From positions 1-34,243 of the forward strand of contig PKUC01000102.1 in assembly GCA_002868865.1 (NCBI GenBank): a stretch of DNA of 34,243 nucleotides, read 5' to 3'. The notes under the pieces are model-generated. The model was not told the origin of the DNA, searched no databases, and saw nothing but the letters and a program-made list of their open reading frames with translations. Of this stretch, positions 1,676-4,596 are shown piece after piece. The position numbers and the translations under genes are program-made. How positions within the stretch are numbered: the first letter of the stretch is position 1; each line of letters opens with the position of its first letter. This DNA comes from Desulfuromonas sp. Its GTDB lineage: Bacteria > Desulfobacterota > Desulfuromonadia > Desulfuromonadales > Geopsychrobacteraceae.

Positions 1676-2593
1676 CTACAGGATACGGATCAAGCCCGCC
1701 ATATCGTCCGGCATCGGCAGGGAAAACGTCAGCCCGTCCGCCGTCACAGGGTGAACAAACGAAAGTTCAGCAGCATGCAGCAGAGGACGCGCGAGATCGA
1801 TCCCTCCGGCTGTGGTCGGCCCATCGTACCGAGAATCGCCCAGCAGAGGACAGCCCAGCTCTGACATGTGCGCACGAATCTGATGAGACCGTCCGGTCAA
1901 TAGTTCGATCGACACCAGCGAGGCCCCAACAAAATGCTGCGTCACCCGGTAACGGGTGATCGCCTCTTTGCCACCACGCTGAACTGATCGCACCCGGTTC
2001 TGCTGACGAGAACGTGCCAGCAGGGAACGGATTTCACCCGTATCGTGCGGCGGACGACCGTCCACCAGTGCAAGATAGCGTTTCTCGACCCGATGTTCCA
2101 TAAATAATCGACTCAGACCTCTATGAGAACGAGGATGAGTAGAAAACACCATCAACCCGGAGGTGCCGCGGTCAAGACGCTGCACCATCCCCAACTCGGG
2201 TTTCTGCTGCGGGCGTTGCGGGTCCTGGAGATAGACCTGCAATGCTTCGTAAATTGTCCCTTTGTAACGGGCGTGGGTCGGCTGAGTATCGATACCGGCT
2301 GGCTTATTCAGAACGATCAGGTATTTATCTTGATAAAGAATATCGCTTGTCTGAAAACGGAAAGGATCGAGTGACAGGTGGTCCAGATAGACATCGATCG
2401 ACTCTCCACGGCGGATGGCACTAGAGCAGCTGCGCGTTCTGCGGCCACTGCGGTGTACCCCGCCCAGATCGATAATCTTCTTGGCACGACCGCGTGACAA
2501 ATCGGGAATTTCAGCTGCCAGAAATTGATCGAGACGGAGACCTTCCGACTGTTCCGAAACGGTCAACTGATGAATTGTCCAACGTTTTGCCAC
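1676..2593 (-). CDS. RluA-family rRNA/tRNA pseudouridine synthase
   Basis: Isomerises uridine to pseudouridine in structured RNA. An N-terminal S4-like RNA-binding segment (GLRLDQFLAAEIPDLSRGRA) is followed by the RluA catalytic domain with the signature VQRLDRGTSGLMVFS, whose Asp is the nucleophile, and RSHQIRAHM further on, matching the conserved HQIR(A/V)H block. The open frame reaches an ATG at 2657-2659, but that ATG overlaps the -10 box of the divergent 6S RNA promoter and has no ribosome-binding sequence. I therefore prefer the GTG at 2591-2593, preceded by AGGCGA, which gives 305 aa beginning just before the S4-like region. RluA, RluC and RluD specificities cannot be separated by eye. 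First gene of the run leading to lgt. Confidence 0.88.
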   Translation of the reverse strand: MAKRWTIHQLTVSEQSEGLRLDQFLAAEIPDLSRGRAKKIIDLGGVHRSGRRTRSCSSAIRRGESIDVYLDHLSLDPFRFQTSDILYQDKYLIVLNKPAGIDTQPTHARYKGTIYEALQVYLQDPQRPQQKPELGMVQRLDRGTSGLMVFSTHPRSHRGLSRLFMEHRVEKRYLALVDGRPPHDTGEIRSLLARSRQQNRVRSVQRGGKEAITRYRVTQHFVGASLVSIELLTGRSHQIRAHMSELGCPLLGDSRYDGPTTAGGIDLARPLLHAAELSFVHPVTADGLTFSLPMPDDMAGLIRIL

Positions 2594-2631
2594 GGGAATA
2601 GTCGCCTGTAAAAAATCTTTACGGGGAGTGC

Positions 2632-2659
2632 TTGACAGGTCGAAGTGGCCTGTTAGCAT
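2632..2659 (+). promoter_or_regulatory. Sigma-70-type promoter of the 6S RNA gene
   Basis: TTGACA (2632-2637), a 16-base spacer and TAGCAT (2654-2659), pointing at the 6S RNA. Transcription would start near 2666, about 20 bases before the terminal stem, consistent with 6S RNA being made as a precursor and trimmed. Confidence 0.7.
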
Positions 2660-2681
2660 GAAACAACAAGATGTGCTCTTT

Positions 2682-2860
2682 AAATCTCTGGGGTGTGCGT
2701 GACGGTGGCTTTACCTTGACCAACGTTGAGGTTTTCGGCCGCGCTGGGAAATGTCGGTGAGCAAGCCCGCCAACGAGTGGGACGCCTGATGTCATTTCCG
2801 GCAGCACAGTTTTTCAAACACGGTCAGTCTATCGTCACTGTTGCGGCACTCTGGAGCGAC
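2682..2860 (+). ncRNA. ssrS: 6S RNA
   Basis: 6S RNA mimics an open promoter and binds sigma-70 RNA polymerase holoenzyme. The roughly 180-nt stretch has the expected layout: a terminal stem of CTCTGGGGTG (2686-2695) with CACTCTGGAG (2847-2856), ten pairs including G-U; a second stem of GTGACGGT with ATCGTCAC; a long unpaired middle; and an apical arm in which GCTG and GGAAATG pair with CATTTCC and CAGC (around 2740-2815). Several pairs are G-U only when read on the plus strand, which fixes the strand. A consensus promoter lies just upstream and no protein-coding gene occupies the region. The exact ends are estimated from the stem. In many Proteobacteria ssrS precedes a ygfA gene; none follows here. 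A covariance-model search with the 6S family would settle it. Confidence 0.82.
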
Positions 2861-2863
2861 TTT

Positions 2864-3027
2864 GGAAATTGGCATCAGCCCCCTGCTACGGGACTTCCAT
2901 CGAGCTGACAACAGCTTTCATCAACCGAAACATCGGCTTCCGAGTGACTTCGACAGTCGCTACGCGCCTTTTGAGTAGGACGATGCGAAACGGATGGACA
3001 CTCTCGACAGGGCTGGTGCCAATTGTT
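2864..3027 (+). other. Structured inverted-repeat element, candidate non-coding RNA or MITE
   Basis: A 164-bp element bounded by AATTGGCATCAGCCC (2867-2881) and GGGCTGGTGCCAATT (3010-3024), which pair over 15 positions with a single wobble. Inside are TCCATC/GATGGA (2896-2901 with 2993-2998), AGCTG/CAGCT, CCGA/TCGG, and GTGACT/AGTCGC. The wobbles in the outer stem and in the last hairpin are G-U on the plus strand but A-C mismatches on the minus strand, favouring a plus-strand transcript, the same direction as the 6S RNA that ends a few bases earlier. No coding potential is evident. I do not recognise it. It could be a multi-branched RNA, a 3' extension of the 6S transcript, or a small mobile element with imperfect terminal repeats; it also lies just past the end of guaA. 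Confidence 0.5.
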
Positions 3028-3036
3028 ATTTGTCCG

Positions 3037-4596
3037 CTATTCCCACTCGATCGTCGCCGGTGGCTTGCTGGAAATATCGTAGGTCACCCGGTTGATCCCT
3101 TTAACCTCATTGATAATCCGGCTGCTGATCCGCGCCAGATCTGCGTAGGGCATCGGATACCATCCCGCAGTCATGAAATCCTTGGTCTCGACGGCACGCA
3201 ACGCCACGACATATTCATAGGTGCGTCCGTCTCCCATCACACCGACGCTCTTGACCGGTAGAAAAACCGCGAAGGCCTGACTGATTTTGTGGTAGTGGCC
3301 ACTCTGATACAACTCTTCAATGTAGATGGCATCCGCCTGACGCAGAATATCGCAATATTCCTCTTTGACTTCGCCGAGAATCCTGACCCCGAGACCCGGT
3401 CCTGGAAACGGGTGTCGCCACACCATCTCATGCGGCAGGCCCAGCTCTTCGCCAATGGCACGCACTTCGTCCTTAAAGAGCTCACGAAGCGGTTCCAAAA
3501 GCTGCAGCTTCATGTAATCGGGCAAACCGCCGACATTGTGATGGCTCTTGATGTTGTGTGCTTTACCGGTCTTGGCTCCCGCCGACTCGATAACATCCGG
3601 GTAGATCGTCCCCTGTGCCAGCCAGGTGGCATCTTTGATCTGCTGCGACTCCTCTTCAAAGATATCGACGAACAGGTTGCCGATGATCTTCCGCTTCTTC
3701 TCTGGATCGGTCTCACCGGCCAGCGCATCGTAGAAGCGGCGCTGGGCGTTGACTCGGGTCACCTTGACGCCCATATTGCTGGCGAATGTCGCCATGACCT
3801 GATCGCCCTCATCAAGACGCAACAGGCCGTTATCGACAAACACACAGTGAAGCTGGTCACCGATCGCTTTATGAATCAGCGCGGCAGCAACAGAGGAATC
3901 GACCCCACCGGACAGGCCAAGAATCACCTGATCGGTCCCGACCTGTTGACGGATGCGCTCTACGGCATCGTCGATGATCTGTCCCGGCGTCCAGCGACCA
4001 CTACAGGCGCAGACCTGGCGGACGAAGGTATTGATAAATGTCGCCCCATGCGGGGTATGATTGACCTCGGGATGAAACTGTACGCCGTAAAGGTTGCGAT
4101 CGACGTTCTGAATGGCACAGACCGGGGCGTTATCAGTACAGGCAACGACCTCAAAGCCCTGCGGCATCGTCGATACATGATCGCCGTGACTCATCCACAC
4201 CGGGCTTTTCCCTTCGACAAAGAATCCGTCAAACAGCGGTCCGGGATTGCCCTGAGACAACAGGTCGGCATGACCGTACTCCCGTTTACCGGCCGGAATC
4301 ACTTCACCGCCGAAGTGACGGCTCATCAGCTGCATCCCGTAACAGATGCCGAGAACGGGCACACCAAGCTCAAACAGCTGTTCCTCGATGGCCGGTGCGC
4401 CGGTTTCATAAACCGACTTCGGTCCACCGGAAAGGATAATCCCGCTGGGCGCAAAGGCTTTGATCTCCTCGAGGTCGAGGTCGAAGGGGTGAAGTTCACA
4501 ATAGACGTGACATTCACGCACCCGCCGAGCAATCAGCTGGGTGTACTGTGACCCGAAGTCGAGAATCAAAATTTTTTCGCTGTGAATATCCGTCAT
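3037..4596 (-). CDS. guaA: GMP synthase (glutamine-hydrolysing)
   Basis: Converts XMP, ATP and glutamine to GMP, the last step of guanylate synthesis. The 519-aa protein has the class I amidotransferase domain first (nucleophile Cys in GICYGMQ, then His and Glu in [10 protein letters not shown]), followed by the ATP-pyrophosphatase domain with the PP-loop [12 protein letters not shown] and the C-terminal dimerisation domain ending in the family-typical PATIEWE. All catalytic residues are present and the length is normal. It begins 5 bases after the guaB stop codon, with a GGAAG ribosome-binding sequence inside the end of guaB, so the two are certainly co-transcribed. No rho-independent terminator follows; the next thing downstream is the inverted-repeat element. 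Confidence 0.98.

Follow-up and report, generated by a model that had tools for sequence, protein, structure and literature searches.

A structured element behind a second 6S RNA gene

The DNA analyzed here, referred to as the window, is a stretch of 34,243 nucleotides from Desulfuromonas sp. (contig PKUC01000102.1, positions 1 to 34,243). It contains a second copy of the 6S RNA gene ("6S-B"), linked to a divergent gene that we take to encode an RluA-type pseudouridine synthase, and the 6S-B match is followed on the same strand by a folded element at 2864-3027. The other of the two 6S matches in this genome is the canonical copy, 6S-A (G000:C94:33851-34031). The features of the locus are as follows.

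1676..2659, minus strand: gene divergent from 6S, presumably for an RluA-type pseudouridine synthase (translation); synteny anchor
2632..2659, plus strand: sigma-70-like promoter of the 6S/element unit (TTGACA, 16 nt, TAGCAT, with a TG preceding the second hexamer; 10 of the 12 letters agree with the consensus)
2682..2861, plus strand: 6S RNA, second (6S-B, rlu-linked) copy (RF00013, 41.9 bits, E 4e-7 in a 581-base search)
2864..3027, plus strand: structured RNA element (fold z score; 103.3 bits to model R1, which was built with the window; covariation; G-U bias)
2864..2878, plus strand: P1 5' arm, which carries AAUUGGC (covariation alignment)
2897..2901, plus strand: CCAUC, 5' strand of an inner stem (MFE fold), which probably corresponds to CCAUCCG in the class-type RNA (comparison by eye)
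2917..2922, plus strand: P2 5' strand (partner 2982-2987), covarying; 2918/2986 unpaired in the window
2923..2932, plus strand: core strand A, AACCGAAACA, GAA strand of a candidate bulged-G (loop E) motif
2935..2938, plus strand: P3 5' strand (partner 2965-2968); 2938/2965 unpaired in the window
2943..2949, plus strand: P4 5' strand (partner 2955-2961), apical hairpin; each of the 7 pairs shows a double-sided change in some relative
2955..2961, plus strand: P4 3' strand (partner 2943-2949)
2972..2981, plus strand: core strand B, UGAGUAGGAC, AGUA side with the putative bulged G
2982..2987, plus strand: P2 3' strand (partner 2917-2922)
2992..2997, plus strand: GGAUGG, 3' strand of the inner stem with CCAUC 2897-2901 (MFE fold)
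3013..3027, plus strand: P1 3' arm (covariation alignment)
3023..3034, plus strand: U-rich tract after P1 (sequence)
3037..4596, minus strand: convergent gene, which we take from its translation to be guaA-like

The score of the 6S-B match lies under the Rfam gathering score of 46.4 bits, so a default Rfam scan omits 6S-B, and default annotation misses the 6S gene at 2682-2861. The gap between this match and the element is 2 nt. Thus, the earlier note was right that the two are adjacent on one strand, while its estimate of about 4 bases between them was too large.

The minimum free energy of the plus strand of 2864-3027 is -64.4 kcal/mol, compared with a shuffle mean of -45.7 (z = -4.46; 0 of 200 shuffles as low), and the minus strand folds less extremely (-61.2, z = -3.33; 1 of 200 shuffles as low). 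All 15 positions of the closing stem, 2867-2881 with 3010-3024, are paired, including a single wobble, U2875-G3016, which reads as G-U on the plus strand only, and several inner stems lie inside the closing stem in the MFE fold. The terminal stem of 15 positions and the internal stems that it was said to enclose are therefore both present as described. Open reading frames overlap the element, for example the one at 2869-3261 on the plus strand in the ORF list of the window.

A promoter scan of 2560-3120 returned two sites, compared with 0.3 expected in shuffles, and boxes similar to the one at 2632-2659 precede 6S in relatives (by eye). No canonical terminator was found by a scan of the same 2560-3120 region. 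In relatives, the element sits by eye between 6S and a terminator hairpin, which suggests that it belongs to the 6S transcription unit and is more than a terminator. This separate hairpin 3' of the element lends support to the earlier proposal of a folded RNA from a putative 6S transcript, not just a terminator.

In relatives belonging to f1, the window's own family, the guaA position is taken by a convergent ihfB-like gene (by eye; translated in L004 only), and in the window's genome an ihfB-like gene with a terminator-like palindrome is found on contig C94 (L108) instead. At the 3027-3037 junction, guaA-guaB lies behind the element where f1 relatives have the terminator hairpin and the ihfB-like gene. 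A rearrangement breakpoint just 3' of the element, at 3027-3037, is likely. Given that the ihfB-like gene and the palindrome are on C94 and guaA is here, the 3' end of the unit in the window is probably P1 with its U tract; as the separate terminator of the relatives is missing, P1 and the tract at 3023-3034 may act as a terminator in the window, and a U-run also follows P1 in several outgroup copies. With the ihfB-like gene and the palindrome elsewhere, the unit in the window could be decaying, and it may be less robust here than in relatives.

Compensatory changes and strand

A covariance model, R1, was made from five sequences including that of the window. When nine f1 members were aligned to R1, 19 of 35 pairs changed on both sides, compared with 7.6 in shuffles, none of which reached 19 in 500 trials; this alignment was fitted to the structure, which favours the covariation count. 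In the same alignment 92.4% of the cells pair, and a control in which the partners were slid by 1-3 columns gave 3-6 double-sided pairs. The covariation of P2 persists when the sequences are lined up by the core motif alone, free of any model. The pair counts leave out three MAFFT alignments, two (A4 and A5) with gaps misplaced in P4 and one (A3) that mixes in minus-strand matches. The structure of the element is under selection, and the search for compensatory changes in homologues that the earlier note had proposed as a check thus gave a positive result.

Across the nine homologues there are 36 G-U/U-G cells and 6 A-C/C-A cells on the plus strand, and the window scores 103.3 bits with R1 on the plus strand and 12.0 bits on the minus strand. 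Taken together, these two differences indicate that the conserved fold is that of a plus-strand RNA. The earlier note had read the wobble positions as G-U only on the plus strand; the direction is right, and the plural was generous for the terminal stem, which has one. Folding energy alone is less telling than covariation across homologues: 9 of 17 homologues reach a z score of -3 or lower on the plus strand, four (G051, G041, G104 and G131) stay above -2, and in five (G014, G007, G051, G045 and G129) the minus strand has the more extreme value.

Occurrence in the order

In its own genome the element was found at one place, by DNA search and by search with R1, so the check for multiple copies revealed none that are dispersed. 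R1 matches 10 of 136 genomes of the order, namely the five that supplied its sequences and five further ones, and the element lies directly behind 6S in all 10; searching related genomes with a covariance model, as had been suggested, thus extended its range at a constant position. A second model, R2, matched the same nine source genomes and no others among 277. A pattern scan of genomes gave 11 stretches, of which six score with R1 (L057, L058, L060, L061, L064 and L067; L058 weakly, at 31 bits) and are places already found in the genome set, and five (L059, L062, L063, L065 and L066) fail with R1, the best of them a partial match of 17.8 bits. The carriers of the window-type element include a cultivated strain, Malonomonas rubra DSM 5091, as well as Desulfuromonas sp. 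BM509 and MAGs. The Malonomonas rubra element, one of the sources of R1, has an R1 score of 132.4 bits.

One of the scoring stretches, L067 (JADFVC010000261.1), is titled as a Chloroflexi MAG and holds an f1-type element of 102.9 bits whose coordinates are the same as those of G104 in the window's family; the Chloroflexi title is probably a misassignment.

For 60 genomes of the order, we viewed the DNA that follows 6S-B and classed it by eye, with six further loci left out (second copies, 6S-A, and cut or doubtful matches). An element with the core motif described below was seen in 22 of the 60, an element recognized later by the wider model R3 in three (G054, G114 and G115), and a shrunken or degraded element in eight (G005, G012, G022, G036, G044, G047, G079 and G080). 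No element was seen behind 6S-B in the remaining 27, three of which (G039, G119 and G128) have an R3-type RNA elsewhere. Its absence from 27 and its reduction in eight of the 60 genomes indicate that the element is dispensable. None was seen directly behind canonical 6S-A at the 20 such loci inspected. At two loci, L125 and L127 (G028 and G129), an identical stretch unlike 6S lies behind a weak 6S match (32.9 bits), and it may be a shared repeat or contamination.

A putative bulged-G core

A bulged-G, or loop-E, motif classically has GAA opposite AGUA with pairs on either side. In 22 core-bearing members from 6 families, which were found by searching for this same motif, [CU]GAA (GGA in two) is followed 43-52 nt later by AGUA and G or A. 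All 22 cores have a standard pair adjacent to the motif, and 18 of 22 have a standard second outer pair; the frequency of the core pattern in dinucleotide shuffles of the window element is 0.0001. As judged from sequence, the core CYGAA/AGUAR of the element would form a bulged-G (loop E) motif, since CYGAA opposite AGUAR has the base order and flanking pairs that are canonical for the bulged-G/sarcin-ricin (loop E) motif of rRNA and T-boxes. That motif is a recurrent three-dimensional module, not a family, and by itself is silent on function.

Eight of the core members belong to families other than f1. With the f1 models, G048 alone among them reaches a good score (37.8 bits with R1 and 33.7 bits with R2), and the other seven are at noise level with both, so the homology of these seven rests on the motif, the P1 sequence and the position.

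A larger RNA family in the class and phylum

In 20 sampled genomes of the class outside the order, 14 have 6S, with 20 matches in all, and behind six of these matches a structured stretch of about 175-195 nt precedes a terminator. This out-of-order RNA behind 6S, of about 185 nt, is better conserved. MAFFT lined the six class RNAs up with G129 and G055, and with G129 alone; G129 combines the loop-E core with the class signature CUAUCCG...ACCGACGGAUUG. The model R3 was made from seven sequences, those of the six class RNAs and G129.

R3 matches 100 of 277 genomes of the class, two of them weakly (G042 and G074). In the phylum sample it matches 20 of 395 genomes: four are members of the class, 10 from outside the class match at E <= 1e-4, and six match weakly (E 0.0015-0.007). 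We take the phylum of these carriers to be of the Desulfobacterota type. Under strict filters, R3 matched 0 of 395 genomes of another phylum, entered via a Sphingomonadales record, a set that held no positive. In an alignment of 35 R3 matches, fitted to R3 and including one source sequence of that model, G129, double-sided changes are seen in 15 of 18 pairs (0 of 500 shuffles). A MAFFT alignment of 12 copies, 11 of which are not directly behind a recognized 6S, yields 36 predicted pairs, 26 with double-sided change. An RNA family with covarying structure thus extends across the class and into the phylum.

R3-type RNAs occur behind 6S, alone, or just before tRNA-Sec. Rfam was run on 20 of the 30 best R3 loci. 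At E <= 0.01 it recognized 6S immediately before the RNA in 19 of them, and the remaining locus was one found in the 6S sample of class genomes; six of the 20 had been used to build R3, which favours 6S-linked copies. Of 13 new loci from the phylum sample, 11 were scanned (L183-L193; ten outside the class), and in seven of these (L183, L184, L185, L189, L190, L191 and L193) tRNA-Sec lies downstream on the same strand at a distance of 8 to about 280 nt, the order at L191 being 6S - RNA - tRNA-Sec. No tRNA was found at L194, and at four more phylum-sample loci the sequence upstream resembles 6S (by eye). A rough regular expression, which misses known 6S-linked copies such as L126 and L152, finds no 6S core within 200 nt of 23 of 38 R3 copies. 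A -10-like box is present in the 55 nt upstream of nine of these 23, compared with a shuffled rate of 6%.

Relationship of the window element to the larger family

R3 gives the window 5.6 bits (E 1.2), below significance, and noise-level scores for the other f1 members that were given to it; among members from the order, its scores are 42.5 bits for G054, 29.3 for G114, 17.3 for G045 and 15.0 for G055. Likewise, an nhmmer sequence profile of 35 R3 members misses the nine f1 elements and recovers G129, one of its own 35 sequences. As R3 does not score the window, the link between the two rests on intermediates, position and landmarks.

Several landmarks of R3 are present in the window. Behind 6S, the P1 sequences AUUGGC/GCCAAU are the same in the window and in the 6S-linked class members, and the start of P1 in the window, AAUUGGC, is common to these members, while stand-alone members differ there. 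AGUA is then followed at 11-15 nt by CGGAU.GG: the window has CGGAUGG 13 nt after AGUA, as CGGAUUGG in L209. These landmarks were chosen post hoc, and their shuffle frequencies are 0.003 for ATTGGC at the start and 0.004 for CGGAU.GG 13 nt after AGUA. AGUA or ACUA followed by CGGA or CGAA is found in only 10 of the 35 R3 members. A loop-E-like core is seen in some class-type members (G215, G187, L209 and L203). The window also shows the marks of the R1/R2 type, namely a model match, covarying P1-P4 and the core CYGAA/AGUAR, with the window itself among the model sources. Finally, under strict filters, none of 44 f1 genomes has an R3 match elsewhere. Judging from the position, AAUUGGC, CCAUC/GGAUGG, the loop-E core, CGGAU.GG and the lack of an R3 match elsewhere in f1, we think it likely that the window element belongs to the R3 family, and it is probably a derived member of this larger RNA family.

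Alternative explanations

Alternatively, the element could have no homology to the class-type RNA and be a lineage-specific RNA domain of its own, an addition to 6S-B that took over the position of that RNA in this order. The lack of a significant R3 score for the window and the negative nhmmer result for the f1 elements would fit such a replacement, as would the differing inner stems and the fact that the f1 models score only G048 among the eight other core-bearing members. Nevertheless, we consider it improbable, given the same position behind 6S and the same P1 AUUGGC/GCCAAU as in the 6S-linked class members, the loop-E-like core in the class-type G215, G187, L209 and L203, the intermediate G129 that bears both signatures, and the 0 of 44 f1 genomes with R3 elsewhere under strict filters. 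The P1 stem and U tract of the window, and the U-runs after P1 in several outgroup copies, could instead point to a hairpin that stabilizes the 3' end of 6S or terminates its transcription and has no independent function. This is quite unlikely, because relatives have a separate terminator hairpin 3' of the element (by eye), the internal core is conserved and R3-type copies stand alone without 6S. That the element might be a diverged tandem duplicate of 6S, and so a third 6S-like RNA, is suggested by its tandem arrangement with 6S, by its closing stem, large internal loop and apical stem, and by the resemblance by eye of GAGUAGGACG to the 6S segment GAGYRGGACG (about 0.2 chance matches by our own arithmetic). 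With the 6S covariance model, however, 2560-3140 gives only the match at 2682-2861 at E <= 5, and the elements of the scanned relatives give none, so we rejected the duplicate as very unlikely.

The complex conserved fold is of a kind typical of riboswitches, and the element could in principle be a riboswitch or leader acting in cis on a neighbouring gene. Yet the next gene is convergent in the window, as is the ihfB-like gene in relatives, and the neighbours of other R3 copies look unrelated, on either strand, except within family f4, where those of L198, L201 and L211 partly agree (ORF translations). There being no consistent downstream gene, we give cis-regulation only a slim chance. The small mobile element that the earlier note had offered as its own alternative, a MITE with terminal inverted repeats, would account for the inverted-repeat ends and the patchy presence. 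It finds no support in the single copy in its own genome, the same junction behind 6S across the loci inspected, the compensatory changes inside the element, the strand bias of the wobbles and the lack of a viral match, and we rejected it as highly unlikely on copy number, position and covariation. A viral origin was also rejected: the f1 core pattern had 0 matches, and of the 64 matches to the R3 pattern none scored with R3 at E <= 0.1.

Proposed role and relation to known RNAs

The explanation that we favour, and hold to be probable, is that the element is a co-transcribed, trans-acting structural ncRNA gene, a fast-evolving lineage member of an undescribed family. Transcription of the plus strand from the 6S-B promoter would yield a 6S-element precursor ending at the terminator behind the element or, in the window's genome, probably at the element's own P1 and U tract. 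The element would fold with its closing stem P1, its inner stems and a bulged-G core, would presumably be freed from 6S by RNases, and could then act in trans as a structural, protein-binding RNA; co-transcription, processing, trans action and protein binding are all inferred. Better conserved members of the family are found downstream of 6S genes, by themselves, in some cases with their own promoter-like boxes, or immediately ahead of tRNA-Sec.

The neighbourhoods of 6S and tRNA-Sec serve as leads on the physiological role only. The frequent tandem with 6S might tie this role to RNA polymerase or to growth-phase control of the kind exerted through 6S, a lead that we hold to be less likely than not. 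A broader proposal, for which we judge the chances to be even, would make the element the most divergent branch of a housekeeping ncRNA, so far undescribed, that Desulfobacterota-type bacteria ancestrally encoded in a 6S - RNA - tRNA-Sec cluster. This RNA would form an RNP that works, or is co-regulated, with 6S and RNA polymerase, and in the class it would have been fused into one transcript with a second 6S paralogue. An RNA of about 190 nt with many conserved positions, matched in 100 of 277 class genomes and without an entry in Rfam 15, would represent a new class of RNA, new in the sense that it belongs to no known RNA family, its broad kind, that of a trans-acting ncRNA, being familiar. 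Its position beside 6S and tRNA-Sec yields concrete hypotheses, and the window illustrates the extent of drift that such an RNA can undergo with its fold kept.

At the gathering score, Rfam 15 places no family at the element in the window, and at E <= 5 a search of 2560-3140 gives nothing besides 6S at 2682-2861. The homologue loci have overlapping Rfam 15 matches far below the gathering scores, several of them on the following terminator hairpins. The earlier remark that no RNA family with this outline was known thus holds for Rfam 15, at the element and at the homologues scanned. The element resembles 6S RNA (SsrS, RF00013) in its apparently common transcription unit, its long closing stem with an apical arm and its similar size, and 6S lies directly upstream of most of the high-scoring R3 loci that were checked; it differs in having no match to the 6S model and a core that would be a bulged-G motif. 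Ms1 RNA of actinobacteria is likewise reported to be a further ncRNA acting on transcription beside 6S that was traced by gene synteny; it comes from another phylum and is likened here by description. The tandem 6S genes of the Bacillus cereus group (PMC7726162) also form a tandem of two ncRNA genes with 6S as one of them; both are 6S there, whereas the second gene here matches no 6S model.

Literature searches returned no description of this RNA, within a coverage that ended short of the supplementary tables of multicopy sequences in Geobacter papers, where an unnamed listing is possible, and the term-matched passages of PMC2864571, PMC2996986, PMC3543383, PMC2700814 and PMC11124144 do not mention the element. 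Two or three R3 matches are present in each of several putative Geobacter-type genomes (L195, L196, L205 and L206), and at these loci a 6S-like sequence lies directly upstream of the further copy (by eye), which Rfam confirms for L205.
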